64,000 bases of DNA from Utricularia gibba (Eukaryota > Streptophyta > Magnoliopsida > Lamiales > Lentibulariaceae): positions 1,302,001 through 1,366,000 of the forward strand of contig NEEC01000009.1 of the NCBI GenBank assembly GCA_002189035.1, given 5' to 3'. The first letter of the stretch is position 1. Each line of letters starts with the position of its first letter. Below the pieces are notes generated by a model that worked only from the letters and a program-made list of their open reading frames with translations, was not told where the DNA came from and searched no databases. A program made the translations under genes and the position numbers. Shown in pieces: positions 1,612 through 60,440 of the stretch.

Positions 1612-2477
1612 ATGAGCCAAGAACAGCCGACGAGTTCGCCGGAAGGGACCAAGCAACAGGAACCCATCAAATATGGTGACGTTTTCGATGTGTCTGGGGA
1701 GCTTGCGGAGAAGCCGATTGCCCCTAAAGATGCCGCAATGATGCAGGCAGCTGAGGCCAAAGTTTTGGGGAAAACTGAGAAAGGCGGAACAGCCGCCGTG
1801 ATGCAGTCTGCGGCAAATCTTAATGAAAACGTTGGCGCCGTTAGCCACCACGAGGTCACCGATATTGCAGGTTCTGAAGGTGTTGCCGTCACCGAGATCG
1901 ATATCCCCGGGACCAAAATAATCATGAAATCCGTTGGCGGGCAGGTTGTGGAGCAGTATGCTGAACCTGCGGATTCAGGGAAGCGCCTCAGGCTGCTATA
2001 ACGATCGGCGAAGCACTGGAATCACTGGCGATCACCGCCGGAGACAGGGCGGTGGACCATGGTGACGCCGCTGCAATTCATGCTGCGGAAAGCATGGCAA
2101 CCGGATCCGACGCCGTGTCTCCCGGCGGGTTATCGGCATCGGCCATGTCTGCCGCTGCGTTCAACGATGAGGTGTTGAGGAATGAAGAAAAAGTGAAGCT
2201 CAGCGGCGTGTTGACAGTAATATATATCTTCCACACTACAAAACAGTCATCCAGAACTGCGATTAATGTTTTGAGTTCGTGGTAACATGTCATTTGTGCG
2301 TAACAGGGGGCGGCGGGTATTATGCCGGCGGACAAGGTGGTGACGATGGCCGACGCGGAAGAGGTAGCAGAGGCGGAGAAGATGGGCGATCGGAAAATGG
2401 GAGTCCACCCCGGCGGCGTGGCAGCGTCCATCGCAGCCGCCGCCATGATCAACGAGGGCAGGGCGCCAGGGTCTTGA
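1612..2477 (+). CDS. Seed maturation protein / LEA D-34 family (SMP domains), one apparent frameshift
   Basis: Exons are 1612-2216 and 2307-2477. The start MSQEQPTSS was chosen because it begins the conserved N-terminus; an in-frame ATG lies slightly upstream at 1588. SMP-domain segments are recognisable: KYGDVFDVSGELA, PKDAAMMQAAEAKVLG, ITIGEALES, AVDHGDAAAIHAAE and a final Ala-rich VHPGGVAASIAAAAMINEG. The protein should be a hydrophilic desiccation protectant of maturing seeds, about 258 residues. The frame breaks after AEPADSG: as written it stops at 1999-2001, but one extra G in the GGG run at 1978-1980 restores the frame to GEAPQAAITIGEALES, a canonical SMP sequence. Any intron here would be under 45 bases, too short for a plant. 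The upstream G-box fits ABA control. Confidence 0.88.
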
Positions 2478-3173
2478 TTGCAACCCCAGTTTGTGTACTG
2501 TAGCATAAATAAATCCACAAATAAAATGACTTTTAACTTAATATTGAACCCCATTCAATATTTTTTATAAAAAAATTAAGAATTACAGATATTAAATTTA
2601 ATAATTGAAGGGCCGGGCCAAAGGTATTATGAGTGGAAGGTTAATATAAAAATATTTTATATAGAAAAATAATTTCTAATTTTATATGAGGTATTTTTCA
2701 TAAAAAATAAAACGTAAAATGGTGATTATTGAATATACAAAAACAAGAATTTAATGGAAAGTTAACATTGGACACCGCACTTCCGCCCCCTCGAAACTCA
2801 GAGTTCTTTATTTTTATAATATTTTAAAACTCAATTCAATGGATTCAATCTAATTGATACTGTTTAAAGTTTAGTAATATATTTTTTTCTCTTTTCATGC
2901 AAACCCAGAAAATATTTTGAAAAAAAAAGGGTTGTATTAAAAAAGAAATGGATCTAAATAAAGGGGCACGTGCCCTAATTTGGGTGCAGTTGTTGCCTAA
3001 AAAAGAAGGGGGCTAATTAAATCCAATAAAAAAGATATATTTGCTTCATTTATTAAGCGTCAAGAACACAACAATCTGATTATAGCAATAATGTCGACAT
3101 CCAACGGCATGCAGAAACAATGACCAGATGGATTAGAACAAAACACTTTTAAATTTTATGCACCCACCGGGGG
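2478..3173. other. AT-rich intergenic region between convergent genes, no gene seen
   Basis: This stretch lies between the 3' ends of the LEA gene and the minus-strand glycine-rich gene. It is AT-rich with poly-A/T tracts and no open frame resembling a protein family. It should contain both 3' UTRs. Confidence 0.6.
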
Positions 3174-4078
3174 TCAGTGTCCACCCCCGAATCCTCCTCC
3201 TAAACCGCCGCCGCCGCCGCCGCCGCCGAATCCTCCTCCAAAGCCACCACCTGCACCTCCTCCAAGGCCACCGCCGGCTCCTCCTCCAAAGCCGGGACCT
3301 GCGCCTCCTCCAAAGCCGGGACCTGCACCTCCAAGACCACCGCCGGCAGGGCCTCCTAGACCACCCCCGCCAATGCCGCCACCGAGGCCACCACCATTTC
3401 CAAAACCGCCCTCATTCCCTAGTCCACCTTCACCGCCCAATCCACCACTCCCACCGAAACCTCCAATGCCTCCGCCTACGCCGACGCCGCCGCCAATCCC
3501 TCCACCAATGCCTGGCTTCGGGAAGGGCTTAGGGATTGGCTTGATAAACGGCTTCGGGAAGGGCTTCGGAAACGGTTTACCGTAACCAACTCCACCACCT
3601 AACCCACCGCCTCCGCCAAAGCCACCGCCGCCGCCGAGAAAAGGCTTTGGTACCGGTTTGGGAAATGGCTTTACAAACGGCTTAGGAATCGGCTTGACAA
3701 ACGGCTTCGGAAATGGCTTCTGAAAACCACCCCCAATACCGCCGCCGCCTCCGTAGCCACCGCCCAGACCCCCACTGCCTCCATAGCCACCCCTGGAACG
3801 CCGCCGCCTCCGTAGCCGCCACCCAGACCACCACCGCCTCCGTAGCCACCACCGAGGCCACCGCCCGCCCCGATCAAGGGCTTAGGAAGGGGCTTAAGAA
3901 ACGGCTTAGGAAGGGGCTTAGGAAAAGGCTTAAGAAAGGGCTTAGGAAACAGAAGTGGTTTTGGTGGCAAGAATTTCTCATCAGACACTTGATCTCCACC
4001 CCCATTCTTCTCCCCCAAAACGGCAACCAGCGAGAGCAGTAAAATGAAGACCAGAAGAAGCCTAGAAACACACCCCAT
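3174..4078 (-). CDS. Secreted glycine-rich protein with Lys-Pro-Phe-Pro repeats (cell-wall type), one apparent frameshift
   Basis: The ATG is at 4076-4078 (minus). A clear signal peptide (MGCVSRLLLVFILLLSLVAVLG) is followed by an acidic linker, then alternating blocks: KPF/KPL/FPKP repeats, GGGYGGGG-type glycine repeats, a second KPFPKPFVKPIPKPF block, more glycine, a third KPFPKPFIKPIPKPF block, and a long GGG/GGF/GGA tail ending GGFGGGH. With the frame repaired the protein is about 301 residues. The frame changes by one base near 3790: one more C (G on the coding strand) in the CCCC run at 3790-3793 joins GVPG to GYGGSGG and the frame then stays open to the TGA at 3174. It resembles glycine-rich structural wall proteins, but I know no named member with this mixed repeat. 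The TATA box is unusually close to the ATG. Confidence 0.75.
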
Positions 4079-4114
4079 GTTGCCTCACTTAGAACGCCAA
4101 CTTCATTCAAATGC

Positions 4115-4122
4115 TATTTATA
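4115..4122 (-). promoter_or_regulatory. TATA box of the glycine-rich protein gene
   Basis: The minus-strand reading is TATAAATA, 37-44 bases before the ATG, which implies a very short 5' leader if it is used. Confidence 0.5.
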
Positions 4123-4630
4123 AAAGAAGATGAAGAAGAAGAAGTAACTCGGGCAGCGATCAGATCACATGGTAGTCCCCCACACTTCAACTGTCTCCGC
4201 CTATCAAGAATGAGTGCATTTACTTCATCTCACCCACCCAAAATCACCTCCATCCACAATGCAACATAAGTCCAGCTCTGAGTTTCCTCATTTAGACACA
4301 ACCCCGCAACCCCATTTCACATCCTTTTCTTCTAACACACCAGAGTTTAAGAACTGAGTCATCTTCTTGAAACAATCAATTTCAAGAATCAAGAGATCAT
4401 TAGCAGTTATCTTGCGTTTCTGGGAATCATCATTCCATGTCCAAGAGAGAGTAAAGTTGTGGTTGGATGGAAGGGGGTGATGCCATTGCCTCATGCCTCC
4501 CATTAATGCGCCTACTCCACGCCACAACATGATTGGATGAATTATTAATTCCAGAGTTTAAAATCCACTTTTTTCATTTTTACATCAAAAAAGAAAAGTC
4601 TAAGTTATTTCTCATACATAATTCAGGGGG

Positions 4631-4652
4631 CCCCGCCCCCGCCCCCGCCCCC
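4631..4652. repeat. CCCCCG hexanucleotide repeat (G-rich on the minus strand)
   Basis: Four C5-type runs separated by single G bases follow a GGGGG run at 4626-4630. The minus strand carries four or more G5 runs spaced by one base, which could form a G-quadruplex. Confidence 0.85.
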
Positions 4653-5017
4653 TTACACATTATACTTGTTTGAGATGCACCCAGTTATTACTTTGGAGTT
4701 ATGAAGCCAGCAGTACACAAGCACTGAATGATGCATGTTAAATTAGGGTTTGATTCCCAGTCTTATTCCCTAATTTGAACTACACTTGTGTAAATAACTC
4801 CTCACAGAAGTCAACCCCCTTCCTGCAGCTGCTCCATTTTAACTCCTCCGGTCATCAGTTCGTACAGTCGGGGAAAAAAACTCCGAGGAGTCCAGTCCAT
4901 GTGGGTGGGCAAAGTGGATTGCAGACGGGGGGTCCTCGTCGCTGTGGGACTGCCAACCTGACTACTCACTGCTGCAGGACAGTGCATCTCCATGAAATAA
5001 TAAAAAAGGCGTAGGGA

Positions 5018-5033
5018 GGGGGGGGGGGGGGGG
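5018..5033. repeat. Poly-G run of 16 bases
   Basis: A pure mononucleotide G tract. Its exact length is unreliable given the homopolymer errors seen elsewhere in this window. Confidence 0.9.
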
Positions 5034-7206: not shown

Positions 7207-7311
7207 ATTGTATATCATTAGAAATTGATTAAAACTAATCTTTTCTGATATGATCTGCATTTTTTATATAACTAGACTTCACATGTACTCGTACGATTTA
7301 TCATATTCTTA
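7207..7311. repeat. Diverged direct repeat, copy A
   Basis: Paired with 7385-7491. Both copies share the order ATTGTATATCATTAGAAATT, then CTTTT(C/T)TGATAT, then TTATATAA, then TTTATCATAT. Probable remnant of a non-autonomous element or a local duplication. Confidence 0.65.
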
Positions 7312-7384
7312 GGGCATGTTTGGTACAAGAGATTATATAATGAGAGTTATGGATTATTTGTGATTGATGTATATTAAGTATAAT

Positions 7385-11733: not shown

Positions 11734-14700
11734 TCAGATGGAAATGCTGTTTGGTATTCCTTTGGTGATCAAACCTCCGCCTTGACTGGTCCCAGAGGCG
11801 TTGGGAAACAGCAGCATGTAATCCACCTTCACTGGCCCAGAACGGTTCTTAAGACTGGAATCCTTGTTCCTTTGCAGGATCCTTTCTTCAATCTCCACCA
11901 GAACGGATGAAAACCTCTCAAATGCCTGCAATGACCTTCTGTCGTCAGTCCATTGAGCACTGTCTCTCTGTCCCAAATAGATCTCATCTGCCGAGTGCCT
12001 TGACAAGATTTCGATCAAAGAAACTCCAAGAAGTGTCTGAAACTGTGCTGTTATTGTCTTGAAGAATGCTGCGTCAGGATTTTGCTCAAGTTCTGCGTAC
12101 TCAGGAGTTCCCTTCTTCGGCATGAATCTCCGGCTCACCGTTGGCCTGTTAGGTAGATATCCTGCATAGGGATATTGTCCAAAGTTTACAGCAGCATGGA
12201 GTGCTGAGGCTATCCATATGATGATGGTGCATGACTGCACTAGCTCCTCTCTGGTGTGCATTTTTGGCCACCATGTCTGGTCCTTGAGATCACCATGGCC
12301 TACTTCACGAACCTCCTTCCACCAAGCTTGGAGCTCGGAGTCAGCTGCGACCTTTTCATCTGTTGGGTAGAAGATGCAGCAATATTCTTTAACCCATGAT
12401 TCAATTGCTGACCATATTTCTAGTCCATCCACAGCATATGGGTAGTCCTCGATCATGAGCTGAAGACCATGGGGCTTGTTTTCAGCTTTAACAGCCATCC
12501 CTCTGCGGTTGGCAGCAAATACATTATCAGACAAGTGAGCTTTTGTGCAATGAATTCAAAGTTGTGAAATCACTGACCTTTTGATGAGATCTTGCGGAAG
12601 TGCCTGATCGTTGAAGTTCCAGCTTTTATAAACTGCAGAAGACATTTCCATCGCGTACTTCCCAGGGAAAACAGTGTTCTCCAGTACACCTCCCGCGTTT
12701 ATGAGAATCTGGCGAGCCAAGGCATTTATGTACATGGTGTCGCGGAAGTGGGGATGAAGAAGCTTGTGTATGGGATGCACCACGCTCAGTTGCCTATGTG
12801 TTGCGATCAGGAATGGCTCAATGACAGCATGGGTGTTCACGAAGTGGCTGATGAGTTGATGGTACCCAGAATCATTCACAGCAGCATAAGCTTTTGCAAG
12901 TTGCCAAACTGCAGCTTCAACTCCCTCATCACATGGAGTAAACACTTCACTGATTGCTCCGTATTGGTCCCCTTCTTCATGTGGCAAACTTAACTCGATA
13001 GCTAGTGGCTTCAAAGTACCATCATCCTGGAGCAGCAGCACAGTTCTTGTAGCATATGTCTTTGTATTAGTTGTGTTGATTCTTCTGAGGTACAACATCA
13101 GTGCATCATGATGATCTAACACGTAGAGTTTCCCACAGTTGATAGCCTGTTTTCAAGTCCAATGAAGAAGAACATTCAAAGAACTGAAATCTACAAAGAG
13201 AGACAGGGATAAAAGGAAAGAGCTTTACCTCATCAACTGTAAGCCCATTCATGAACTTCTCAATGTGTTCTCTTGTGATGGTACTGTCTTGATTACCATA
13301 CACTTGGCGGTCGAGATTGCTCCTTGGGGGAAACTCCTCTAGGCGGCGAATGATGACAGGGTTCACTCCGGCGAGCATTTCTCTTCCGAATTCCTCATCA
13401 GTTCTCCAAGCTGTTTTATCCTCTGTAAAACACACAAGCGTTTCAGTCTGGATGCAAAACTTGAACAAACACAAAGTGATCCTTTACCTTGAATTACTTC
13501 AGGCATTGGGAATTTAAAGGAGCGTTCACCATCTGAGCGAATCAGCTCTCTGATCAGTTCCATTGAAACACTTTGCCGGCGCTTCAGCAGAGCACAGGCA
13601 TCAGGAAGGTCCACCTCCTTGCTGTTATCATATAACCTGAGAGCGTCTTCGAATGTGTCAAACTCGTTCCTCGTCTTGTCGAACAAGTCTCTGATCTCTG
13701 GCCCGATAACTTGTCCAATGGATTTCAGAGCATATGCTATGAAATCTGAAAACTTGACACTTGAAAACCTCTCATCTCGTGGTACATAAATGTCTAAGCT
13801 CAGAAGAGGCAGCCTGCTCTCTGTCTTTGGATCTGCATTTCAGCTCCAACAGCTTAGTGAAACTATAGCAAACTGTATGTAAATCATCTGTGATAGCTTT
13901 TAGTTTGTTCCCTTACCCCGTTTGTTGGGACGACGGCCGGTTCTTCCCCTCCGTGGATATGGATATTGTTCCGTTCCTCCGAGAACTGGACGAGCAAAAT
14001 CCTCTCCCCTTTCAGGCATCCCCAGATCATTGTAGTAAGCGTAGTCATACACTCTATCCCATTCCTTCAGAGCGCCTTTCCCATTTCCACGCAGATTGAT
14101 CAGCTCTTGCTCTCTGTACAATCTCAGAGGCTCCGGCGTCTCACACGGCAAGTATGTCTGAAAGTCAAGCAAAATTTCAGGTCTCAAATCAAGAACGATA
14201 AGGATAAACCACTTGTATCCCTTCAGTAAAGTACCTGATTCGAAAAGAAAATGCGATCGTAGCTATAACGGTGTGCTGGGTATACCCAGGAGTTGCAATC
14301 AAAATGGACTTGGCCTTGCCCAGGAACATTTTCCAGAGTGACTGTCTTGAGGTAAAACTGGCTAAAATGATGGTTTTTAACGATAAAAGCTCCAGGGACT
14401 CCCAGACATTCCTCCCAATCAATTTCCAAGTCGAAGGTAGCAGAATCTTCTGCTCCAAGTGAAGTTAACTTTGAAAACCAGTCTACCAAACGTGCTTCTT
14501 TTCCCAGCTTCCCTTTATTCCCATTCTCTGCAAATCCACAGGCAAAACTTTACGATTCAAGAACAGCCAATCTAGAAACACAAAGAAACCCTCCATTTTT
14601 TTCCTCCATAACACACACCCACAAATAAAAAAAAAGAAAACCTAATAAAGAAGAAACTCACCAGGGTCACACTGTGTTGAACTGATAAACCTGAAGCTAA

Positions 14701-14911: not shown

Positions 14912-15000
14912 CACGAAAAAATCTGAAAATTATTGGCGTTTAAAAGAAAGAACTAAACTTGCTGGATGTAGGTGTTGGAACAAGGGAACTAAAAGAGGGG

Positions 15001-15700: not shown

Positions 15701-15717
15701 GGGGGGGGGGGGGGGGG
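15701..15717. repeat. Poly-G run of 17 bases
   Basis: A pure G tract inside AT-rich DNA; its exact length should not be trusted. Confidence 0.9.
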
Positions 15718-16226: not shown

Positions 16227-17176
16227 GCTTGTAGGGGACGCAGGCTGCATCTTTAGCAAGAGGAGATGAGGCATCATCATCATCGCATTCTTCCCTTCAA
16301 AGCAAGCAAGTAAGCAGGCAGGGATCACTCGCATTGCTGCGTCTGATTGGTGAATCAGGGTTTCCTGAGGCTTCGTTTTGTTCGAGATTGGTTTCTCTGG
16401 AAGCGACTGGTTTGCACTGCGGCTGGTGAAATGGTGGGAGATTCTGTGGGCTGGGGGTATCAACCGAAGCGTCCATTACAGAGACTCCTTGGGTCAGACC
16501 TTCGAAATGGAACCAGATTCAGTCTGTCACATTACAAAAGCACAAACCTTTTCCAACTTTTGGCACTGCAAATGGAGGGCTGAGGCCTTCGTTCCCGACG
16601 TGCTGCAAGTAAATCACGCTGATTACCGCTCCTCTTCCGGCTCCTGCTGGTTAAAGCATGGCCAATCCGATCGGAAGGTTCATAGGAAAACGGCATTCTA
16701 TCGTCGGCTCCGGCGACGACACTGCCCCGGCGTCCCTCGGCCACGGCTCCCTCTCATTTGCTGGTTGAGAGATTCGAGGAGAAAAATCTACATTGATATT
16801 TTATTCCTAGAATCGAATTTTGTGAAGCATCTTTAAGGGATATTGCACAGTTTTAAAATAATGGGCTCGACTCATGGTTACATCCCGTTAGTACTAACCC
16901 GTATTTTAATGGATTGGATCTAATTCAATTTTTTTTACTTTCATTTTCTTTTTTTAAAATTTTTTTTAATGTGTAATTTAGAGAAATAATGAATAGCAAA
17001 TATAAGATATATAAATATTTGATATATATATATATATATTGATTATATCTTAATAATTATATTTTTATATATGTATTAATATTGATAGTCAAAAATATTT
17101 ATCTATAGTTAGATTATATATTATTTGAATGAGATATTGAACAATTAGAATGATTTAATGTAATAGTATCAATTGC

Positions 17177-17180
<4 letters not shown>

Positions 17181-17209
<29 letters not shown>
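17181..17209. repeat. TA dinucleotide microsatellite
   Basis: About 14 TA units in AT-rich intergenic DNA; a shorter AT run lies near 17023-17040. Confidence 0.9.
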
Positions 17210-17213
<4 letters not shown>

Positions 17214-17669
17214 TTATTTAATTTTCTATATTTTCAATATTTTGATACATTAAAGTATGATTTTATAATTATATTTTAATATTTTAATAAATATAATTAA
17301 AATTTAATGAAATCAGTTCAATTCATTTTAAAAAGTGTTCGACCCAAGACCATAACAAAACCGTTCAATGGGTTTAACCCATTTTTAAAACATTGGGATA
17401 TTGTGATTTTCCAATCAAATATTATATTCGCAAATTGGCTTTCTAGATTTATTTCTGGCAAGGGATTAAAAAAATAAATGATTTTATTACGGATAAATAC
17501 AGATTACAGAAGTGGATATTATCAGTCATGGAATATGGATTCGGATTGCAATTAAATTAACACGTGCCCGGAATTCGAGGAGGCAATCCAACTGACCTAA
17601 AAAATAGGAAGACTCTAACGAAGTTACCAAAAACAAGGAAGATAGTGCGGCTACATCTGCGTCATTAAG

Positions 17670-20409: not shown

Positions 20410-20951
20410 ATGGAAGCACCCTCGAAAACATTGTCCCTTCCAAATCTCTCTTCCGTGCGGGACGCCGCTGATCCGCCGCCGACGTCCTCGGCCTCGTCAA
20501 CCGGTGGTGTGATTACCGCCTCCGTGAGCTCTAGAGCGAAAGAACTCTTGAAAAAGTATTTGAGAAAAGCGAGGAGCTTAATCGGAATACTGTCGCCGGA
20601 GCAGCTGTCGTCGTGCCGCATCCCAAGAACGGTGACAGCCTCTAGCTCGCGGGACATGAAAGAAGACGAAAGGAAGGAGGACGAGTATGCCGGCGCGTGG
20701 CGGAATATAACGGGATACTGTAAGCCACCGGTAATACCGAGGAGAAGGAGGAGGAGAAGAAGAAGCTGCATTTCGAGCTGTACCACATCGTCGTCATCGC
20801 CATGTGGATCCGCCCAGTTGAAAACGGTTCGGGTCGGCCCGGCATCGCATTATGCGGATCCTTCTTCAATGCAGGAGTTGCAGGAGGCGATTCAGGGGCA
20901 ATTGCTCACTGCAAGAACTCCATGGTGAAGAAGAGCAACGACCCTCCCTAG
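20410..20951 (+). CDS. MAKR/BKI1-like membrane-associated kinase regulator, frameshift near the C-terminus
   Basis: The frame from 20410 encodes a Ser-rich basic protein with a KELLKKYLRKARSL segment and an RRRRRRRRSCISSC stretch, then DPSSMQELQEAIQG. The MAKR/BKI1 C-terminal signature is SSM(E/Q)ELQ.AIQ.AIAHCK.S. As written the frame runs to a TGA at 20926-20928 with an unrelated tail. One extra G in the GGGG run at 20895-20898 gives QGAIAHCKNSM and a stop at 20949-20951, which matches the signature. MAKR proteins sit at the plasma membrane and bind receptor kinases (BKI1 with BRI1). The N-terminus is uncertain: another frame from 20240 (MTGRLHSSVSSSSDC...) may be the true start if a second base is missing between 20350 and 20410. 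Confidence 0.65.
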
Positions 20952-24354: not shown

Positions 24355-25288
24355 TCAAGCTACATAGTAGAGAGGATTTGGAAGTTTGAATGCTCTCTTT
24401 GCTGCTGGAGCACCCTCGAAGCTGCTCCACTGATCCCCAAAGCCCCCCAAATATGGTATCCACTGTTCACCAGCTGCTTCCTCGCATCAGCTTTGTACCT
24501 CCCTATCTCCTTGTTTTCATCATCCTGTTTCCTGCAAGTTCCTCAGAAGAAAATGAGTATCCTGCTCTGTAAATTACAACATATATGTGGAGAGAGGTCG
24601 AACCTTAAGATGAGACTTGCCCAACCATGGTAACCAACATCAACAAGGTTGTCTGTAGTGGCAGAGCGCAGACATTCCTTTCTTGATGAGATCAAGAATA
24701 TCCGAAATCCCAAGCCCTTCAAATGATCGAACAGCCTCAGTGAATGGTCCAGCACTGGCGCCTTAGCAGCCAACGCCCACTCCTCATAACTAGTTGAGTT
24801 CAGCCTGTTTCCCCTGCTTCCAGTGCTCTCTCATTAGTGATGGATTCTTGATCAACTACAAGTTTGTTCCTTAAGTAGTTGAGATGGAGTCTTACGTACC
24901 CGAAGCCGTTCTTCTTGTAATAAGGAATGGTGGAAACAAGGGTGTCATCAACATCAAAGATCCAGGCATCAGTCCCATCTTTCCTCAAACTGCAGCTCGT
25001 GCTTATGTAGGAAATGATCTCATCGATAGTTCTCTCGGAGTCGACTTTGTACTGAGTCGAAAGCATGTATTTCCAGATAAAGCTGACGCATTCCTCGGGC
25101 ACAACCTCGTAATCCCTGATGTTGTGAAGCTCCACATTCACTCTCCAGCTCTCACAGTAGTTCTTGAGTGTGATCTGGAGCCCGGATCTGGTAACCTTCC
25201 TCTGGTGCAAAATGTTCCAGTCTGCAGCTGAAGCACAGAGCAGGAAGAAGGTAGAGATCAGCAGAACCAAAAAGGGGTGCCTTCCCAT
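24355..25288 (-). CDS. Acid phosphatase, VSP/HAD class IIIB type, one apparent frameshift
   Basis: Minus-strand exons are 24900-25288, 24604-24813 and 24355-24531. A signal peptide (MGRHPFLVLLISTFFLLCASA) is followed by CESWRVNVELHNI, VPEECVSFIWKYMLSTQY, the HAD nucleophile motif DAWIFDVDDTLVST, PYYKKNGFGG, APVLDHSLRLFDHLKGLGFRI, FLISSRKE and NLVDVGYHGWASLILR. In exon 3, KQLVNSGYHIWGALG should run on as DQWSSFEG; one extra G in the GGGG run (CCCC at 24435-24438) restores this and the conserved ending KLPNPLYYVA with its stop at 24355-24357. The family includes vegetative storage proteins and secreted or vacuolar acid phosphatases; the intact DVDDT suggests enzymatic activity. About 261 residues once the frame is repaired. 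Confidence 0.88.
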
Positions 25289-26763: not shown

Positions 26764-28664
26764 TCAATTGCATATGTAATCTCCGCTAGCATACTTGTGA
26801 TCGGTCTCATAGAACTCAATCTTGGCATCAGAGGCAGCACAGAGTGAGAACCCCGACAACGATCTAGGCGTTTTTGAAGAAAATTTGACATACGCAAAGA
26901 TCTCAAAATCAGGTACATCATCATCATCCCCTATCTCCAAAGGCATTCTAGCTCTCAGTCTCCCAGGTTTCCCCTTCAATGGAATTTCATCAATCTGCCA
27001 TTTCAGTTCTCTTTCAGACCTATTCAAGACTGCTTTCGGTGAAACTTTTAACAGTGTAGGGTCTGAAGGCAATTTGAGAACGAAAACCACATCAGTCAAT
27101 GGTGCTGGCAGGTCTGGATTGGAAGCATAATGTATCATCAGTGACAGCAGCGTGCCACTGAGACGTTTGATGAGGCGAATCCTTAGAGGCAACGGAGACA
27201 TACGAGGTAGCAAGCTGTACTTAATGATAGGCATGGGTTCCTCTGATGGTGTAGTCCTCACGTGAAACAAGCCATTACCGAGGCTGCTCACCTTGGAGCT
27301 TTCAACAGCAAATCTCTTCACCCCTTCGGTACCTTGAACCTTAAATGAGAACTCTGTCTCCTTATTATTTGTAGAAGATGTTGGAGGCATAGTCTTGATG
27401 TATACCACACCCATCAATCCAACTCTAGCAAGCAATGACTCTCTAAATTCTGCACTTATCTCCTCCACAATGTACATTTCTGGACCTTTCATTTCAGTTT
27501 TCTTGAGCAGTATATCTTCTAGTTTCTCTCCCGTGTCACTTTTTGCCACAGTTTTGGGAGGTGGCTCACTTGTAGCCAGGAGCTCCAAGCCACCAAGACC
27601 TTGGTCCTTAGGAACCTTCTTTGGCCCAACGTACTCAGAAGCATCCAATCCGCCGCCCCACGCATCATTGATCCCCTCAAAATCTTCTGGAAGGGTCGTG
27701 CCATCGTTACTGAACTCAATCCCCCATAGTTACCTTCAAAACCTTCAACACCAATGTGAGTGGACTCTGTAGCCGCAGGAGGAGGCAATGTAGTAACTTC
27801 AAGTCCTGCTAGAGCCTTGCTAACATCCGAAAGGCCAACACCCTTGTTCTTCTTAAAACCTTCCACCAGCAATTCTTCTGGATTGTTGATCCTGTCACTA
27901 GCCGCAAACGGGTCTTTCTCTTCCTCACTGTTTTCAACTTTAGGTGCCTCTTTTTCCTCCACTTGCTGGACGAACCCTAATGCAGATGCAGCCACCTCAT
28001 CTCCAGAACTCAGTGTCTCAGCAGGGAGCTCAAAGAAAACCTTAGAAAAGGTTTCAACACTAGTCTCGTGCTCCACAGCCTGCGGTTCCACGACGGCCCA
28101 ACTATCCGCTCCTCGGATCTTAGATTCAGTGTGAACAGCAGAATGCACCATTTTGGCAATGCTTTCACCATGCATAGATGCAAGCATCGCTGCAAGCCTA
28201 ATGCTACTCACTCCTCTCAAAACTATATCCAACGCCATATATACTTCCGCATACTTCTTCCCCAATTTCTCCAGTGTTACATCGACGCCACGACAGGCAG
28301 TCACTATCACTGAAACTGCTTGATTTACAATATGTATGCACTCAAAAACATTATTATTGGAATCATCGATAGTAGCAATAGCCAAAACATAGATCGAATT
28401 GACTAGACGGTACACCACGCGATACCGTGATTCGACGCCGACAATTACCTGCCCAGAGGAAGCGGCCAATGGGTCATCTCCGAGCAAATCGGAGGATGGA
28501 TCAGACGCTGTGGCAGACTGCTGTTGGCTTTTGACGAAAGAAAGACGGGTTTCCCTGAACGCGGAAAGCGCCATGAGAGCTCGAAAAGGAGGGAACCATT
28601 CGCGAGTCTGGAGGAGTATATCCGGTCCATTAGCTGGTTGAAGAGCTAGTCCTAGACACGACAT
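26764..28664 (-). CDS. TML: TPLATE-complex muniscin-like subunit TML, one apparent frameshift
   Basis: Intronless minus-strand gene starting MSCLGLALQPANGPDILLQT, about 633 residues once repaired. The N-terminal part (VIVGVESRYRVVYRLVNSIY, GVDVTLEKLGKKYAEVY, LRGVSSIRLAAMLASMHG) and the linker with KDPFAASDRIN are typical of TML. The C-terminal mu-homology domain follows (GLMGVVYIKTMPP, FRLIHYASNP-like, WQIDEIPLKGKPGRLRARM, FEIFAYVKFSS). TML is a core subunit of the plant endocytic TPLATE complex, acting with AP-2 and clathrin at the plasma membrane. The frame breaks after EGNYGG: one extra G in the run GGGGG (CCCCC at 27721-27725) gives GIEFSNDG and LPEDFEGINDAWGGG, joining the two long frames. 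The head-to-head neighbour is dihydroneopterin aldolase. Confidence 0.93.
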
Positions 28665-36169: not shown

Positions 36170-39100
36170 TCAAGTTCTATGAAATACCTCAAGCATGGGG
36201 TCATCGGGAGTACTGGTCTCCTTGTTGAAGCCACACTGAAGAATCCTCAACTTCCCTTCCTGAAAATGGTGATTGTAATCATAATCACAGCCTTAATGAT
36301 GATAATGAAGGTACCAACCCACCACATACTCACCTTTGTTCCATATACAAATCCACCACCAACGTGGGGATGAAAGCATGCCACGTTAACCTCATCTTCT
36401 GCATTTGGGAGAACTCTTACAAGTTCCATGTCTGAAACTCTGTAGATCTGGAATCAAACGAAACAGCATGGCACAACGTTATCTTACTTAAAATTTCATT
36501 GCATTAAAAGGTTCTAATAGCACCATTTAACATTGTTCTTAATCGCTTGAATTTAGGCAAAAAAATGCTTACGAGAACATAATACTGGACCAGATATTTA
36601 TAAATATTGATTGAGATTATGGAGCATAAATCACCTCCAAAATTGTGTATATCGGCACAGCGGTGTCTCCGTCAATCACGACACTCCTAAGAAGTGAACT
36701 GTGTCGCCGTCCATAGGCTAACAATAGATGCTCAGAAGTAGGAGAAAACTGAAAGAAATAAAAATTGATGATTGAAAAGTTGTAAGAACTTCCAAAGGGT
36801 AAATTTCAACTGCAATGTCAATAAAAGTTAAGCTTTATGATCCAGATACAATTTTATAAGTTTAAAAGGAATAATATCTTACTCAACAACAATAAGGAAA
36901 AAACCAATTCAAAATCATCGTTGATAGCAATACTATCAGCTTCACCCATCATCGTTTAAGATAAAAAAGTATAGCCTGATTAAAATCTGTGAAAATTTTT
37001 TTTGAAGCCCCATTTTCATTCAAGTACATGTAGTTTCAACGTTCAATACTGAACGTGGCATATGCCTTTGGAGATTCATCATAGATTATTAGGTCAAGGC
37101 CATGAAAGAACAAGCAGCTTTAAGGTAAGAAAATGATTTGAAAAAGCTCTAACCTGTATTGATGTCAAACAATGCGCGGCTCTGATTGCTCTAGAAGCTA
37201 GAATACAGCCAAATCTAGAAAAAGTAAAATACCATTCATTAGCTCAGTGAGGAAGATAATGATGCAAGATTAACATGTGACATAAAAAACACATATTATG
37301 TACTTACGTAGCCTCCTCAAGGGAGTATATCCTTAGTTCATACATAACTTGATGGGCAGAAATTGGATGTCTTGTTGGGGAAGTTGAAGAAACAGCAGTA
37401 TCATTATGAAGATGACCTTGCAATCCTGGATCATTATCCACGTTTGGCAAGATACATGCCACACAAACTGCCAGAAATCTTCCGCATGGAGAAAAATGAG
37501 CACCCATCTCACTGTGAAGAAGTCAATCCATAGTTAAGCATCTGATTCTACACAGCAGTCAAAGAACAAAAATAGAAGACTTCGATGCACTCTTTATGGA
37601 AATGTTTTTCAAAAAAAATTTCAATCTAAATAACAAAGCAAGTTTTCGTAGGTAATTTACAGTAGATTGAATGCAAAAATACACAAACCAGGAGTAATCC
37701 TACCTGCAAAGAACAGCATGAGGTATCATCAAGCGACATCGTTCTGAATCAAGAGGCTTGCAAGGATCCTTCGCATCATGGGACCATATCCTGAGCTTGA
37801 CAGTGCAAGGTAACTCTGCAGCTGCAGCTGCAGCAATCGACGAAGCCACCTCAGTTTGAACTTGGCTTACAAAAGGTTCTGGATTGCTCTGCTCACGTGG
37901 GATGCTATTAAGGGCAGGAATCTCACTGGACCCATTAACCAGTCTGGCACGTGAGCGCGATCTATTTTGTGAGCCAGGTATTCCTGAAAACCTGGAACTG
38001 CCAGCATTATGATTTATAGAGGATACAATGGGTGGATTCCCCACTAAATTATTGGAGGCTAGTCCTTCAACAGGTGCCTCATTATGTGAGTGGATTGCAC
38101 GTTGGCTAGCTTGACTTTGACCAACCAACCAACCCTGGAGAAATGGAACCTCCCAGCATGCAAGGTCTCCAAACGGGAAATACTGATTACTTCTCTCTCC
38201 ATTTTGTACTTCGGTCTGCTCGGATTCAACTGCATCTTGAGAAGAATGGCTGCTAATTTCCCTTGTCAAAGAATTATTTTGTATCTCTTCTCGCACTGGA
38301 GAGTTGATTGGAGACAATACAAGTTCGTACTGGCCAGATGGAGTTGAATACGTGAACAGCCGTACAGAACCAGATGAATTACCTCTCTGTTGTGTAACAA
38401 TAGAGTTCATTTCCATCTCACTTTGCTGATCAGCTCTGCTTATTGAAGGCCATATTATAAATGGTATAGACATGATCGGCAACTCATTTGTAGAATTTGA
38501 CCGATAGGCAGAATTAGCATCAGCCAGGTATATGGTAGGTGGAGGATATTGCAAATAACCAGGAGAAGTAGCAAGAGTCATTGAAGGATCGGATGAATCA
38601 AGATCATTAACCTGAGAAAAAACAAGAATTAGAGATAGTCCCTTGATGAAATGGGTAAGCTTAGGAAAACCATTACTTCTGCTGTCAGAAGAAACGGGGC
38701 AGCATGGGGATGGAAGTGGACTGCCCGAATTGACCGTCTTGTCTTTAGTATAATGGCTGGTGAGGAAGCATCCCCCTTCTATTATAGTGCCATATATAAA
38801 GCTGCCACAGAAGCATGTTACCAAGCAGATAATCTAAATCTGAATCAGGGGCAGTGTCCTGTTTTAAAACGCTAACCTTGTGGCCTGATGCTACAGCTAA
38901 AATTTCACCTAGGGCATGAAAGGCAATTGATGCTATCGGACGGTCTGCATGTGTTTAACAGAATGTTAAATATTTGATGATTCTCAAGTAGCAAGATAAT
39001 AATACAAAAGAGGCACAAATGTTGGTTACAGAAATCTCGTGATCCTAAGCAGTCTGCAGTTTTTGCATTCCATAGCCTAACTTCATGATCCAAACTACCA

Positions 39101-40489
39101 CTTGCAAGAACTTCTGGATAGAGTGGATGGAATCTAACCTGCATACCAGAAAAAAATTATCCAACCAACCATTATTTAGAAAGATAAAGGCAAATGTCTA
39201 CACTAAGATGAATATCTCCAGAAACAGTCAGGGAGGATTTTCTTTTTTTTTTTTAAGATTACGAAACAGTAAAGATTACACGTTATCAATAACAAAATTG
39301 CCAAAAGTGCTCACCACCCAGGGTGTCCTCCGATGACCACTAAGCACTTTTAGGCATTTTCCAGTTTGGCAGTCAATTATCTTCACTGTATGGTCTCCAC
39401 TGCCAGCATCCAACGTGGGTCAAAGAAATATATTATAGAGGACATGAAGCAGATGCATACAAAGAATTGTGCTTTTGGTGGGCCGAAATGAAGGACTAAG
39501 AGCACAAAGAAACTCGTAAATAGAGAAACAGATATACTTACTGTGTTGAAGCAAGCGTCTTCCCATCGGGACTAAAGGCTGCAGCAATGGTTGACCTTGG
39601 TGGAGGTAGAAGGGGGCAATATTTTGCAGACAAATGCTGTAATGACTCTGCCTCAGCCCTGTGGTTCAGAAGATTTAAAATGTCAGATCAAGCTTCTTGG
39701 CAGCAGATTCACAGTCAACTATGAAATACAGGGAGTACCAAGACCGAAGCTCTTGTCTAGCATCTTTAGATATGTCACTTATGGAGTTCCGGCTGGAGGC
39801 TTTTCTCCAAAATCTATTGGGAGCTCTCTTTGTTTGAGGAGATATCTCTCTCTTAGATAGCAAATCAAATACATTGCTGCAAATGGAGCTACATGAGTTA
39901 ATACCAACTTGTAAGTTTTTTAATGAAGCATAAACAAAAACACATCACTACCATATCCGGTATTTAAAAAAAAAAAACAGCGACACCTTCTGTTCCTATT
40001 GGAAATGAAGAAAGAGTCGTAAACTCTAATCTTGCTGCAAAGCACACGCATGAATCTCTAAAATCCTTAGGGAATTGATATTGCACGCAGCCCAATTGGT
40101 AAAAACATAAAAGAAACGAAAAAGAGAGTAACTCAAGCGAATAGCTTGATAAAATTGATTAAAAGCTTGCATTTCTCGCCTGCAGCTATCTTAACGGAAA
40201 AGGATTACGCATTAAACGAGAACACAACCCAAAGTTCCTGTACCCCCGTCAACATTCACACAACTGACGCCCATCTATCAACTTACAGTAAACCATAACT
40301 TATCAGTTGAAGCAACTAAATTCCATGTCAAAGCGCAAAATTGAGGCAAAAAACATACCTTTTCCTGGAACCATTTTCTTCGGCGGCAACTACAGGCGGA
40401 AGTAGGAGCTGATGGAAATTCGACGAAGGATGCTGCGAACCCGTAGCTGATGACGGCGTATTATCCGGAAAAACAGGCGATGACCGCAT
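36170..40489 (-). CDS. Plant AMBRA1-like WD40 repeat protein, 13 exons, one apparent frameshift
   Basis: Minus-strand exons: 40359-40489, 39739-39876, 39542-39658, 39315-39399, 39030-39138, 38877-38944, 38677-38801, 37704-38611, 37308-37511, 37154-37214, 36635-36748, 36334-36447 and 36170-36259; about 754 residues. N-terminal WD40 repeats are clear (STIAAAFSPDGKTLASTHGD, HTVKIIDCQTGKCLKVLSGH, VRFHPLYPEVLASGSLDHEVRLW, IASIAFHALGEILAVASGHK, RAVHFHPHAAPFLLTAEVND). A long Ser/Asn-rich disordered middle follows, then C-terminal WD-like segments (MGAHFSPCGRFLAVCVA, FSPTSEHLLLAYGRR, VACFHPHVGGGFVYGTKEGKLRIL). This is the split-propeller layout of AMBRA1, an autophagy regulator and CUL4-DDB1 receptor in animals; the plant role is inferred. 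Exon 7 needs one more G (CCCCC at 38772-38776) to read YNRRGDASSP. Confidence 0.85.
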
Positions 40490-41567: not shown

Positions 41568-43545
<1,978 letters not shown>

Positions 43546-45316: not shown

Positions 45317-46740
45317 ATGCCAAACATGGGGATAGGGGGCCAGATGGACTTCTTCTCCGGCCGCTGCATACTCGTAAACGGCCCGGTAATCGTCGGAGCC
45401 GGTCCCTCGGGGTTAGCCGTTGGTGCCGGTCTGAAACAACAAGGTGTCCCTTTGTCATACTGGAAAGAGCCAACTGCATTGCTTCTTTGTGGCAGAACTG
45501 GACTTACGATCGCTTAAACCTTCATTTGCCTAAGCAGTTTTGTGAACTCCCTTACATCCCTTTCCCCAAGAGCTTCCCGGAGTACCCTTCTAAGAACCAG
45601 TTCATTGATTATCTGCTTAACTATGCAAAGGTATTTGAGATTGATCCCAGGTTTAATGAAACAGTTAGGTGCGCTAAGTATGATGATACCTGTGGTTTGT
45701 GGAAGGTTATGACGGTTAATTCCTGTTACATTTGTCGGTGGCTTGTTGTGGCTAGTGGTGAGCATGCTGAGAAAGTAGTGCCTGAGTTTGAAGGGATAGA
45801 GAGGTTTGGTGGGAGTGTAATGCACGCCTGTGACTATAAGTCCGGCGAGGATTTCCGGGGGAGGCGCGTCTTAGTCGTCGGCTGCGGTAACTCCGGGATG
45901 GAGGTTTCCCTCGATCTTTGCCTCCATGAAGCTAACCCCTTGATGCTGGCCCGCGGCCGGGTGAGTGCCTTTCACCATCTTACCAGCTCCGCATTGGCGG
46001 TTCAAGTCTGCTTATCGCTTTGGTCTCTCTGTGTGCAGGTACATGTTTTGCCCAGAGAAATACTTGGGATTTCGACCTTTGGGCTATCGGTTTTCATGGC
46101 GAAATGGTTGCCATTGTGGTTGGTAGACAGGATTCTGGTAACTGCTGGGAGATTGATTCTTGGGGATCTTGAGAAATACGGTTTGAAACGACCCAAGATG
46201 GGGCCTATAGAGCTGAAGATCACACAAGGGAAGACGCCCGTGTTAGATATAGGGACACTTTCAAGAATACGGTCAGGTGATATCAAAGTAGTCACCGGAG
46301 AAATCAAGAGGTTCTTACCAGGAAAAGTCCAGCTCATGACACAGCAAACTGTTGATGTGGATGCTGTCATTCTCGCAACGGGATACAGCAACAACGTCCC
46401 TGCCTGGTTAAAGGTTGGTTCTTTTTCTTTGTTTTTTTTTCCATGCTTCCATTTCCGGGATCGAACCTCCCTTCCTCTCTCTCTATCTCTCTTTCTCTGT
46501 TCATCTCTTTCTGACGAGTGGTTTGATGGGCAGGAAAATGAGACGTTTAATGAAGAAGGGTATCCAAGAAACCCATTCCCCGATGGATGGAAAGGGAAGA
46601 AAGGGCTGTACGCAGTTGGATTCACAAGAAGGGGGCTCTCAGGTGCATCTCTTGATGCAATCAAAGTGGCACAAGACATTGGGAAGATATGGAATCATGA
46701 AACCAATCACGCTTTTGCTGCTAGAAAAAGCAAGTCATAG
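45317..46740 (+). CDS. YUC: Indole-3-pyruvate monooxygenase, YUCCA family (auxin synthesis), one apparent frameshift
   Basis: Exons are 45317-45960, 46039-46413 and 46534-46740; 408 residues after repair. The start [22 protein letters not shown] leads into the FAD motif [13 protein letters not shown]. Further YUCCA markers are [47 protein letters not shown], the NADPH motif [43 protein letters not shown], the ATGY motif in [15 protein letters not shown] and [19 protein letters not shown]. It oxidises indole-3-pyruvate to [21 protein letters not shown] and the LPLWLVD stretch resemble the YUC3/5/7/8/9 group. The frame shifts inside [10 protein letters not shown]; one more C (run 45448-45450) or T (45451-45453) repairs it. 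As written, the first frame stops at 45517. Confidence 0.92.
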
Positions 46741-53496: not shown

Positions 53497-56400
53497 ATGG
53501 AGGACCCCGATGCAGCGGCTCTCGAGGGCCTGTCACACTCGCCGCCGCGCCGGAAAGCGCACTCCTATAGCCAGCAACTGGGGAACCCCATCCTTGGCCA
53601 CCCCAGGCGCCAAAAGAACCATAGCCTGGATGAGACTCTAATTTTCGTTGAAAGAAGTAATGACGGGAGCGTCAATGCTTCCGATGATAATGGTGTTCAC
53701 CGTTACTACGGCTCTGATGGAAGTGAAATTGGTGTTTCGTCTGATTATAATGTGGATTGCAGCCATTCGTTTAGGGAGTGTGGCGATGATGAAAATCGAC
53801 ACCAACCATTGCCGGAGTTTGTTGGGAGCGGCGGAGGCGTTGGCGTATTTAAAGCCCCGACTAGGGCAGCTGTGCACCCCAGTCGTCCACCCTGCCTTGA
53901 GCTCAGGCCCCATCCTCTCAGAGAAACTCAGGTGCTTTATGGCCTTTCATCTTCTTTTTCACATTTGGGGTTGTTTGGTGTTCTCAAGAAAAAAATGTCG
54001 ATCATACAAAACTCTTTGTTTCCTAAATAATTCTATTGTTTTCATGCTTGCTTCAATTAGTCTTATAATGTTGGATCCATTTTTTCAAAGCTCGAACCTC
54101 ACCATGATAGAGTTGCTTGGTTGTAATATGGTAATAAAAAATTATAAGTAGGGGAAATAGGCAAAAAATCATAGCCAACATGGTAGCTGCCTTTAGTTAC
54201 TAATGTGAATCATACACTGTCTGTTTTTTTCTTATGAAAGTTGTCCTAAATTTCATCTACTTAAAAGAGTGGAAAAATCAATTGGGATGATTGAGAGTTT
54301 TGTACCACAAAAAATGCCTTGTTTCTCAATTTCACTTCAGGTATTTGTTCCCTTGCAAATTCCTGAACAGGGTGGGAAGCTCTTGAAGACAATTGTCACT
54401 ACAGAATCACAACTATGGGCTGGGCAAGAGTCTGGTGTAAGAGTTTGGAAATACATAGATGCATACGAGGCTGGAATAGGAAACGCTGGAGCGAGAAAGA
54501 CTCGTAGAGGGGATGAGGACACTTCTCCATTTTATGAGTCGGCTAGCACTCCACCAGTTATGTGCATGCTTGTGGACCACGGGACCAACCTTGTTTGGAG
54601 TGGACATAAAGATGGAAAAATCAGATCTTGGAAGATGGACCAACAATTTGCTGATGATACCGCCTTCAAGGAAGGCTTCTCTTTTCAAGCTCATCGTGGT
54701 CCAGTTCTTTCTATGGCCATCTCTTGTTTTGGTAATTTACTTGATTTTCTTGAGTAAATGCTGTTGGTTTCGAAATACATATTTAAAGCCTGTGATTTCT
54801 TGGGTTACAGGTGATATATGGACTGGTTCTGAGGGTGGCGTCATAAGAGTTTGGCAGTGGGAATCCATCGAGAAGTCAGTTTCTCTTTCACCAGAGGAAA
54901 GGCGTATGGCTGCGCTGTTGTTAGAACGATCTGTGATTGACCTGAAAGCTCTGGTCACTGTGAATGGCGTATGCAGTATTTCATCTTCAGATGTCAAGTG
55001 CTTGTTGTCTGACAGCATCAGAGCCAAAGTTTGGGCTGTTTGCTCTCTATCCTTTTCTCTCTGGTAGGTTGTCAGCCTCCATATTATTTAAAAGTACCTT
55101 CACATATGAAACTGAAAAAAAAAATAATGCTTTCAAATAGAGAAAATGACTACCAGCTTTTTTAGTCATTTTTTCCGAAAAGTTTTGGTTTTTGGTATTG
55201 TCAAACAGCTCAACTAATGGTTCATTTTGTAAAATCTCAGGAATGCTAAGACAAGAGAACTCCTAAAGGTGTTTAACATCGAGGGTCAAATGGAAAATCG
55301 TGTTGACATGCCATCATCTCATGATCATGCAGCAGAAGATGAGATAAATGTGAAGTTTGTCTCCAAGTCAAAAAAAGAAAAATCTCAAGGCTTTTTACAG
55401 AGGTCAAGGAATGCTGTAATGGGAGCTGCAGATGCAGTTCGACGAGCAGCTAAAGGGGCAGGTGCTCTTGTTGAAGAAATAAAAAAAACAGAGGCCATTA
55501 TGCTTGCATCAGATGGCATCATTTGGACAGGGTGCTCCAATGGCTTAATAGTGCACTGGGATGGAAATGGAAATCGTTTGTATGATATCAGCCATCATCC
55601 AAGTGCGATTTTATCCTTTTGCAATCACGGATCTAGAGTATGGGTTGGGTATGCAAGTGGACTGATCCAGGTGTTGGATCTTGAGGGAAATGTAACTTCC
55701 AGTTGGGTTGCTCACAATGAGCCGGTTATTAAAATAGCCATTGGAAACTGTTACATTTTCAGTTTGGCAACTCATGGGGTATAAGGGGCTGGTTCATCTC
55801 TTCTCCATCTCCCATTGATAACATCTTGATAAAGGAACTATCTGAAAGATCAGATATGTACACAAGGCAAGAGAATGTGACGATCTTAGTGGGAACATGG
55901 AACGTTGGACAAGGAAGAGCATCACATAACGCTCTCATGTCATGGTTGGGCTCTGCAGTCTCAGGTGTTGATATTGTTGTTGTTGGCCTTGAAGAAGTTG
56001 AAATGGGAGCCGGCTTTCTAGCTATGTCTGCAGCCAAAGAAACTGTAAGCTCACTAAAAACTACATCATACTACACATCCCAAATCTAATTTGCGGCGGA
56101 GTTTGAAACAAATCTTTGTTTACTATCTTCTTGCACTTCACGTACTAAAGGTGGGAATTTGTGTATTTAGGTAGGACTAGAAGGAAGTTCGGTTGGCCAA
56201 TGGTGGCAAGACCATATTGGCAAGGCCTTGGGCGAAGGATCTACTTTTGAGCGACTAGGGTCAAGGCAACTGGCTGCCTTGTTCATTGCAATCTGGTATC
56301 ATCAAACTTTTGTGCACATCACAAGACATGCAAAACGTTGGCTTCGACAATTTCTTTGAACCATTTCTACAGGGTGCGGAAACATCTTAGACCTGATGTT

Positions 56401-58218
56401 GGTGACTTGGATGTAGCTGCAGTGGCATGTGGGCTAGGTCGTGCTATCGGTAATAAGGTATTCAACTCATTATGGTACCTTCCCTTATTCACAACTCATT
56501 ATTTTGCATATTTTTTTGAACCTGATGGTCAGCTAATTTTGTTTTTACATTTCTAGGGAGGTGTAGGTCTAAGACTAAGGGTGTTCGATCGGTTGATGTG
56601 TTTCACGAATTGCCATTTTGCTGCACACTTGGAAGCAGTTAACCGCCGAAATGCTGATTTTGATCACATATTTCGCACAATGGCGTTCGCCCGATCAACC
56701 AGCAACCATTTCAACAATAATCCTGGTATGTTGGTTTTATATTCAGTGGAAGGTGTTAGTGGTGGTGTAGCTGACATATGTGTTATCCAACGTAGCTGGT
56801 GCTTCTCCTGCGAATCCAGCACTTCGGGGAAATAATGTACGAATTTTGTGATGATGGCTTTTCCCCTTGATTTTCTTGTATTGGCACTAAAGTATGTGAG
56901 CTACAACAGGCAACAATTGCTAATCCTGATGAATGGAGACCTGATCTTGCAGAAGCTGATCTCGTTGTATTCAGTGGTGATTTCAATTATCGTCTCTTTG
57001 GCATAACATACGATGAGGCTCGAGACTTAGTATCACAACGAAGCTTCGATTGGCTTCGAGAAAGAGATCAGCTCAAGGCAGAAATGAAAGCTGGTAAAGT
57101 ATTTCAAGGAATGCGTGAAGCAATCATAACTTTCCCTCCTACTTACAAGTTTGACAAGGGAAAACCAGGACTTGGAGGTTAGTTGGCTCCTTGATTCTCA
57201 CGTATAACATTTCTTGTTTAGCTACTGTTTAAATTGTAGAACAAATCCCATGCGCAAGAGAATAAGCATGCTCTTAATGAGTGACGTTTTAGGCTATGAT
57301 TCTGGTGACAAGAAGAGAATACCTGCATGGTGCGACAGAGTACTATATCGTGACAGTCGGACAGCTCCCACAAAGGATGTCAGCTTAGATTGCCCCGTAA
57401 TAGCCGCAATAGTACAGTACGCCCTGATACTTTGTTATCTCCTTCCTGTTGAATTCATCTCTCCGGCCATGTTTGCTTGATGCTGCACACCTTTAATGCA
57501 GATATGATGCATGCATGGATGTCACGGAGAGTGATCACAAACCAGTACGGTGTAAGCTCACAGTTGACATTGCTCGCGCGGATAAATCAGTGAGAAGACA
57601 GGAGTTTGGGAGGATACTCAACTCCAATGATGCAGTCAGATCCAGCCTCGAAGCTTTGTGCTTTGTACCAGAAGTTAGTATCAGCTCAAACAGGATCACA
57701 CTGCAGAAGCAAGACCTCTTCAACTTGAAAATCACCAACATGAGCGGAAGTGAAATGGTCTACTTTCAAATTGTTTGTGAAGGCGTATCCACAATCAAAG
57801 ATGACCAAGCTGAACCAAACTACCGACCCAGAGCCTCTCTCGGCTTCCCACGCTGGATCGAGGTAGTGCTTTTCCATTAAAGCTGAGCTTATTCTGTGCA
57901 ACCATTGAAAATTACATTCTTTTTTTTGTTTTTCTTGGGTTGATTGACTCACAGGTTATCCCAACGGCGGGGATAATCAGGGCAGATCAGGTGGTGGATG
58001 TGTGCATACGCCACGAGGAAGCACACAAGTCGGAGGAGTCGACTGAGGGTGTCCCTCAGAGCTGGTGGTCGGAAGACACGCACGACAAAGAGCTCATCTT
58101 GTCCGTCGTCGTCAGAGGCGCGTGCTCCTCCCGCGCCAAGACGCACCAGGTGCATGTCCGGCAGTGCTTCTCCGATGGTGCCTTTCAGACTGATCAGACA
58201 AGTAAACATAATGTTTAA
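53497..58218 (+). CDS. Type II inositol polyphosphate 5-phosphatase with WD40 repeats (FRA3/IP5P12-14 type), one apparent frameshift
   Basis: Exons: 53497-53931, 54341-54731, 54811-55063, 55241-56044, 56171-56295, 56373-56457, 56557-56725, 56796-56836, 56910-57177, 57293-57416, 57502-57862 and 57955-58218; about 1106 residues. After a disordered N-terminus ([12 protein letters not shown]) come WD40 repeats ([69 protein letters not shown]). The phosphatase domain has [24 protein letters not shown], the motif [24 protein letters not shown] and VTESDHKPV, followed by an ASH-like C-terminal domain. It removes the 5-phosphate of phosphoinositides or inositol phosphates; FRA3 affects actin and secondary walls in fibres. 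In exon 4, SLATHGG breaks: one more G in GGGG at 55776-55779 gives [13 protein letters not shown]. Confidence 0.94.
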
Positions 58219-58792
58219 GTGATGGCACTGGTACTTGTGTGAACATTTCCTCCTCGAAAAAAGCCGGCTTCACAAAATCGAAATTTAATATGTGCATTTA
58301 ATTATATTATATTTTAAAAATTAGAAGTAAATTTGTAATCATAAATATATTAAAATACAGAAGTGCGTGGGCTCGGGTGGTCCAGCCTCCTAGCCCAGTC
58401 CTGTAACGGGCCGTTATTGAGCCACCATGTTTATTTTTGGGCCTAATTGATGGTCTTGAACTGGCCCATTGTGTAATTATATTAACAAAAATGTGTTGGC
58501 CATTTCAACCCAAATCCAATTGAACGTGGGTAGGGCTTGGTGTCTTAGCAAATTAGGCCCGCTTTCCTTCGAAGGTTTCAGCTTTCCACGTTCTGTTCTG
58601 AACCTGGAGGCTGTAGAACTCCAGAGTTTCTATAGCAATTCATCTATCTGAGTTAGGTTTTCTCGAGCTTTGAATTTGATTTCCGTGGTTTTAGACCCCC
58701 ACTTAATCATCGGGAAGGCGGCCGGAGGGTAACTACGATTCATCGTCTCTGTCGACATTTGGGGAACATTTCTGTCTGTTTCCGTTCACAAA
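58219..58792. other. Region between the 5-phosphatase and RRP36
   Basis: 5-phosphatase 3' UTR, AT-rich DNA, then the RRP36 promoter and leader, which again contains GGCCCA/GCCCA words (58372-58475). No gene seen. Confidence 0.5.
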
Positions 58793-60440
58793 ATGCTGAA
58801 TTTGGAGCCGTCAATCGCAACGTCGAGCAAAGCCGGTTTTGAGGATACTGATATTTCCTCTGAAGAAGTAAAGAGTGCCTTTTGAGTTGTTCGTTCTTGG
58901 TTTTTTGAGTGCCTAACCTATACGTTTGATTGATTATGGACATGCCAGCATATTTAAAAGCTAATTGTTTCGATTTTTCAGGAGAATGAAATTCAACGTC
59001 ATCTTGATGAAGTGACATTTGAAGAGCTCCAGAAAGCTCGGTCTGATGGCTCCGACATGGTTTACCGGAAGCAAAAAGAGGAGAAGAAAAGCAGTCGAGC
59101 AAATAAGAACAGGTAGTTCATATTCATTGAATGTGGCCTTTGTATGTATTTTTCAGTATACATTCGTGATCTTTTAGACCAATGGAGATAAGTTCCAAGA
59201 AGCCCGTCAGCAAATTTAGAGAAGTCATTCAAGTTCCTAAAAAGGTGGGTGCTTTGCCTGTTGTTGCAGTCTTATATAATGCATTGGGGACATCTAGGTA
59301 TCTTGTATTTATCTTTTCAATTTTTTCAGGTGGTGCGGGATCCTCGTTTTGAATCGCTATGTGGTGCATTTGATCCTGATGGGTAATCAGTCGAATGCCC
59401 TCTGCCTTGTTTTTCTTTTTAGTGTCATTTTCAGTGGATGCAGTATAAATTATTTCTATGAGGAATCTTCATTCAACATTCTTGACTTAGGAATGAAGTA
59501 CATTTCATGAAATTGTAGCGTCCTGTTGCAGAGTCATCTGTTCATTCCGTATTGTGTAACTGAGTACAAGCTACAAGTTTCGTGTGATATGCAGTGCCTT
59601 AGACTTATTTAGCTTTCTTTTGGCATCAGGTTCAAGAAAAGGTATAGCTTTATCTATGAGAGCACATTGCCTGCCGAAAAAGAGGTAATTTCAGCGATCT
59701 TTTCTCATAGATTCTATATGTTCTAATTTGGGGTTTGCAACCTACAGGAGCTCAAGAAAAAATTGAAAAAGGTAAAAGATCCTGAGGTGATCAATGAACT
59801 GAAGGGCAAAATCTCGCGAATTGTAAGTTTTTTAAACGTAGCAATCTGATCTCTGAAATTGAAGTCAATCTGAAGGAAGATTCATTTTATCATTTTGAGA
59901 TGCATGTCTGTACTTGTGCACACAGAATAAAGAATTGAAGTCCACAGTCACAAAACGCAGCGAGAAGGATATTTTGGCAGAACACAAGAAGAAAGAGAGG
60001 GAAGCTGCAAAGCAAGGGAAAAAACCTTATTATTTAAAGAAATGTAATCCCCTCTCCTTCCCTTTGAACATGTCATTGTGTCGTGTGTTCCGTGAGGCAT
60101 ATTGCATTACATACTATTCTTCCATTGAATGCAGATGCACCTCTTTATGAACTTTATGCCAACTTGGTAGTGTAGCTTTGTATTGCTGATGAGGACTGAA
60201 TTTTTTTCCCTTGCAGCGGAGCTTCGCAAGCAAAAGCTTGTTGAGAAGTATAACGAACTAAAGGTAAATAAAGTGAAAGTGTGATGAGAAGTTAGTACTT
60301 CTGTTAAATGCATTGTTGGTCACAGTGTGATAACATTGCAGGAATCCGGGAAACTTGAAGCATATGTTGCCAACAAGAGGAGAAAGAACGCCTCAAAGGA
60401 CCATCGTTACATGCCATATAGACGATCCAATGACCAGTAA
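58793..60440 (+). CDS. RRP36: Ribosomal RNA processing protein RRP36 homologue, nine exons, one apparent frameshift
   Basis: Exons: 58793-58867, 58982-59112, 59178-59244, 59330-59382, 59630-59684, 59749-59822, 59926-60043, 60217-60263 and 60342-60440; about 239 residues. Conserved RRP36 pieces are in order: DEVTFEELQKARSDG, RPMEISSKKPVSKFREVI, VVRDPRFESLCGAFDPDGFKKRYSFI, LKKVKDPEVINELK, HKKKEREAAKQGKKPYYLKKSELRKQKLVEKY and KRRKNASKDHRYMPYRRSND. RRP36 is a nucleolar component of the 90S/SSU processome needed for early 35S pre-rRNA cleavages. Exon 6 reads out of frame after the Lys codon: AAAAA at 59758-59762 must be six A bases to give ELKKKLKKVKDPEV; as written a TGA follows at once. Nothing else is disturbed. 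Confidence 0.9.

Follow-up and report, generated by a model that had tools for sequence, protein, structure and literature searches.

The window analysed here is a stretch of 64,000 nucleotides of the Utricularia gibba genome (C505:1302001-1366000), which belongs to an assembly of 100.09 Mb in 516 contigs. The PacBio assembly of U. gibba is listed as assembled with HGAP, with a contig N50 of 3.4 Mb (PMC5793159). The original prediction held that nine genes of the window each change frame exactly once at a short run of bases. We found a frame break in eight of them, and the sites are as follows, with the ninth gene given last.

1978-1980, plus strand, GGG: LEA/SMP seed-maturation gene, with GGGG in contig C234
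3790-3793, minus strand, CCCC: glycine-rich protein gene, with Gly-rich repeats across two ORFs
20895-20898, plus strand, GGGG: MAKR-like gene, break inside the C-terminal motif QELQEAIQ/GAIAHCKNSM
24435-24438, minus strand, CCCC: acid phosphatase (HAD IIIB) gene, break close to the 3' end
27721-27725, minus strand, CCCCC: TML (TPLATE-complex muniscin-like) gene, ORFs in adjoining frames
38772-38776, minus strand, CCCCC: AMBRA1-like WD40 gene, break seen by paralogue comparison
45448-45453, plus strand, CCC/TTT: YUCCA-type flavin monooxygenase gene, break seen by paralogue comparison
55776-55779, plus strand, GGGG: inositol polyphosphate 5-phosphatase gene, break between the beta-propeller and the phosphatase domain
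59748-59822, plus strand: RRP36 exon, not broken, phase 0 through the A-run at 59757-59762

In each of the eight broken genes there is a single shift of -1 with family-like sequence on both sides, and the predicted coordinates of these eight runs were correct. The LEA/SMP gene has its SMP domains in two different frames flanking 1978-1980. The PF03767 match to the acid phosphatase ends at profile position 203 in one frame and resumes at position 201 in the next, and the PDB structure 4fyp aligns across the join of the two frames once one residue is filled in there. In the 5-phosphatase gene, Pfam places the beta-propeller in one frame and the catalytic domain in the next. The C-terminal motif of the MAKR-like gene is split over two frames in the window, but five further places in the genome have it in a single frame. 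TML is read as two ORFs (406 and 321 aa) whose frames adjoin, the muHD lying in the second, downstream ORF, and both the stop codons and the codon usage change frame at 27721-27725; a search of the PDB found no close TML structure. Judging from the frame statistics, the downstream muHD and the sequence of the family, we regard the putative break in TML as confirmed. In the glycine-rich gene, Gly-rich repeats run through two ORFs that overlap and differ in frame, one of 137 and the other of 235 aa. It is the weakest of the eight sites, its putative break being read from the repeats.

Paralogues carry one base more at several of these sites. This was found in the acid phosphatase and AMBRA1-like paralogues on contig C402 (the latter with 82% identical DNA), in the 5-phosphatase paralogue on C451, and in several YUCCA paralogues at 45448-45453, where the FMO domain lies downstream of the break and either a C or a T may have been lost. 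These longer paralogues are located in the syntenic duplicate on C402, on C451, on C2 and on other contigs. Taken together, there are five sites at which a paralogue or a family motif speaks against the shorter text of the window, namely those of the acid phosphatase, AMBRA1-like, YUCCA, 5-phosphatase and MAKR-like genes. Three further candidate shifts were rejected. The one at 39676 falls in an intron of the AMBRA1-like gene, and at 12161 and 30583 the damage belongs to the C402 copy while the window reads through.

The syntenic duplicate (C402:883650-912343, minus strand) corresponds to about 11.7-39.9 kb of the window in reverse order, with 69-84% DNA identity in the aligned stretches, an arrangement that is consistent with a whole-genome duplication. 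A lipoxygenase exon is intact in the window at about 11734-12555 (minus strand) and degraded in the syntenic copy at C402:911531-912343. The degraded copy is an example of real loss after duplication.

RRP36 does not belong to the broken genes. The A-run placed in this gene by the original prediction is really six bases long (59757-59762), the exon at 59748-59822 reads ELKKKLKKVKDPEVINELKGKISRI in phase 0 across AAAAAA, and the neighbouring exons join in frame. When spliced with no shift, RRP36 matches PF06102 with an E value of 1.3e-40 over profile positions 30-165 of 165. The frame break was rejected on these in-frame exon phases and on the profile match obtained without a shift. RRP36 was also the only one of the nine sites assigned to a pure A/T run, and because it falls away, each of the eight real sites is found at, or adjacent to, a G/C run of 3-5 bases. 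The prediction that the direction is always a loss was borne out (8/8 real sites). The broken genes were also said to carry no further damage, which agreed with our results, as one shift was found in each and no other break appeared where paralogues permitted checking.

Two other features of the window may be mentioned here. An AT-rich element of about 550 bases at 16850-17395 has short imperfect terminal inverted repeats (16840-16858 and 17383-17401) and dozens of partial copies in the genome at 71-87% identity, and it looks like a non-autonomous transposable element. Non-coding sequence also holds two long runs of G, one of 16 bases at 5018-5033 and one of 17 bases at 15701-15717, and all remaining G/C runs in the window are 7 bases or shorter.

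The beginning of the window is present a second time in the same assembly, on contig C234. The duplicate stretch and the run-length differences within it are listed below.

Window 1-3430, equal to C234:21549-24975, opposite strand: duplicate stretch, 0 substitutions, 5 single-base indels
Window 377: G5 in C505, G4 in C234
Window 1073: C4 in C505, C3 in C234
Window 1978: G3 in C505, G4 in C234, the LEA/SMP site
Window 2882: T7 in C505, T6 in C234
Window 3364: C5 in C505, C4 in C234

Within this stretch C234 is the shorter copy at four runs and C505 at one, which is the LEA/SMP site (GGG vs GGGG). In the 3,500 bases upstream of the window the two contigs show no substitution and four homopolymer indels, two short in each contig, C505 being one A shorter in two A6/A7 runs immediately before the window starts. 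Over the total of 6.93 kb there are no substitutions, and 9/9 single-base differences fall in homopolymers; C505 is the shorter contig at three of these. The LEA/SMP break is shown directly by this second copy. A/T runs are affected too, with C505 short at the A6/A7 runs and C234 one T short at 2882, and run lengths in the assembly are unreliable. The match of C234 (35.4 kb) to C505 ends at window position 3430, within the glycine-rich gene, beyond which C234 consists of unrelated sequence; a chimeric join in C234 or in C505 is possible at this point.

Other overlapping contigs gave a similar picture. C316 and C412 overlap by 4.13 kb, where they differ by 1 substitution and 10 indel events, C316 being the contig that lacks the bases each time. 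One GRAS gene is carried by C422, C414 and C416 alike, and its copies show 0 substitutions and 5 indel events, all of them losses relative to C422. These two sets together hold one substitution and 15 indel events, every one of which consists of bases missing from the smaller contig, with some events longer than one base and several of the C316/C412 events lying outside homopolymers.

As the window by itself offers too few cases, we used the GRAS family from other parts of the genome to measure how far the pattern exceeds chance. This family was picked since most of its members match in one uninterrupted frame, and intact paralogues served as references for the frameshift-aware alignment that revealed the breaks. 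Duplicates were removed from the counts, as were loci that might hold introns or be truly decayed, the choice among split genes being made by hand; the split or degraded loci L073, L077, L080, L084 and L085 were excluded, since either an intron or genuine decay could account for them. Among the 36 cleanly analysable genes, 12 were frame-broken and 24 unbroken; the breaks comprised 16 losses and no gain. G/C runs of 5 bases or more were present at 6 of the 16 breaks, compared with 1.0% of background positions (P ~6e-9), and runs of 4 bases or more at 9 of the 16, compared with 6.3% (P ~1e-7). A/T runs showed no enrichment at the 16 GRAS breaks. The homopolymer bias is not absolute, as the run is only two bases long, or absent, at a few of the GRAS breaks. 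The density of breaks in the GRAS domain is about 0.4 per kb, of the same order as in the window. The loss of bases from homopolymers is a genome-wide process that is independent of gene function.

Outside this family, a contig of 267.5 kb carries psaA and psaB side by side (C515:70174-74549, loci L069-L072). Its psaB is open, and psaA has several in-frame stops and frame changes. It may be an organelle contig of low quality, or it may derive from plastid DNA that was inserted into another genome.

In this study, we conclude that the eight frame breaks of the window are almost certainly consensus errors of the long-read assembly. One base, most often G or C, would be dropped from a short homopolymer at consensus calling, and the dropped base would make an intact gene look frameshifted. 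For the seven sites other than LEA/SMP, we infer a common cause with that site from the shared signature, from the paralogues and motifs at five of these sites, and from the pattern seen across the genome. All eight frame-broken genes are very probably intact in the plant, as far as sequence comparison can tell. Homopolymer under-calling had been proposed as the single cause for nine genes; the second copy and the loss-only breaks across the genome uphold it for eight, and RRP36 had been misread. The data support an ordinary artefact rather than biology, and neither pseudogenes nor recoding are necessary to explain the breaks. There is a small chance that one or two of the eight sites are real frameshifts that resemble the error, most plausibly the one in the glycine-rich protein gene.

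Some or all of the breaks might instead be genuine young frameshift pseudogenes, reflecting gene loss after whole-genome duplication in a shrinking genome. Duplicates are being lost here, as the contrast between the window lipoxygenase exon and its C402 counterpart demonstrates, and at least one GRAS copy (L085) has stops plus several shifts. The broken genes of the window, with a single shift each, do not look like this; the changes are losses only and are concentrated in G/C runs, and decay of a core gene such as TML is not expected. Moreover, five GRAS paralogues break within one conserved G/C-rich segment, which would not be expected of independent pseudogenes, and the run at the LEA/SMP site is complete in C234, the two copies differing by no substitution. 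We therefore consider decay of these genes very unlikely, in agreement with the original prediction, which had ranked pseudogenes and recoding below an artefact.

It is still less probable that the copies represent two alleles and differ in run length through real heterozygous indels. Redundant contigs could be haplotigs, but alleles normally differ mostly by substitutions, whereas all the redundant sequence (~13 kb) holds 1 substitution vs 24 indel events, and coding frameshifts would need to segregate in a third of genes. Programmed ribosomal frameshifting or other recoding has a negligible chance of being correct, since, although runs of identical bases can be slippery, the LEA gene is in one frame in C234, the window genes come from unrelated families and have no common slippery motif or position, and the paralogues are read without a shift.

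Consensus errors as the source of these breaks amount to a warning about the quality of the assembly, in which eight genes of a 64-kb window and roughly a third of those GRAS genes that could be analysed cleanly look frameshifted. Claims of gene loss, truncation or pseudogenes that are drawn from this assembly need the support of reads or cDNA. In a report of a DCL3 truncation, probably based on the same assembly, the authors checked the finding by RNA-seq and 5' RACE (PMC8333044).

Single-base homopolymer deletions that remain after Quiver polishing are an already known fault of PacBio assemblies, and 561 of them were reported in a genome of 2.9 Mb (PMC4888979). Assemblies made from PacBio continuous long reads and polished with Quiver only resemble the window, as single bases are lost from short homopolymers, substitutions are absent, and intact genes seem frameshifted. 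In contrast to that case, the errors described here were revealed by redundant contigs and paralogues instead of short reads, and they show a marked bias towards G/C runs in coding sequence. Gene-fragmenting indels of long-read assemblies were also described in the Kastor work (PMC12007338), and as in our results, they produce false frameshifts and premature stops that resemble pseudogenes. That work dealt with small genomes, whereas the breaks reported here are found in a plant nuclear genome.
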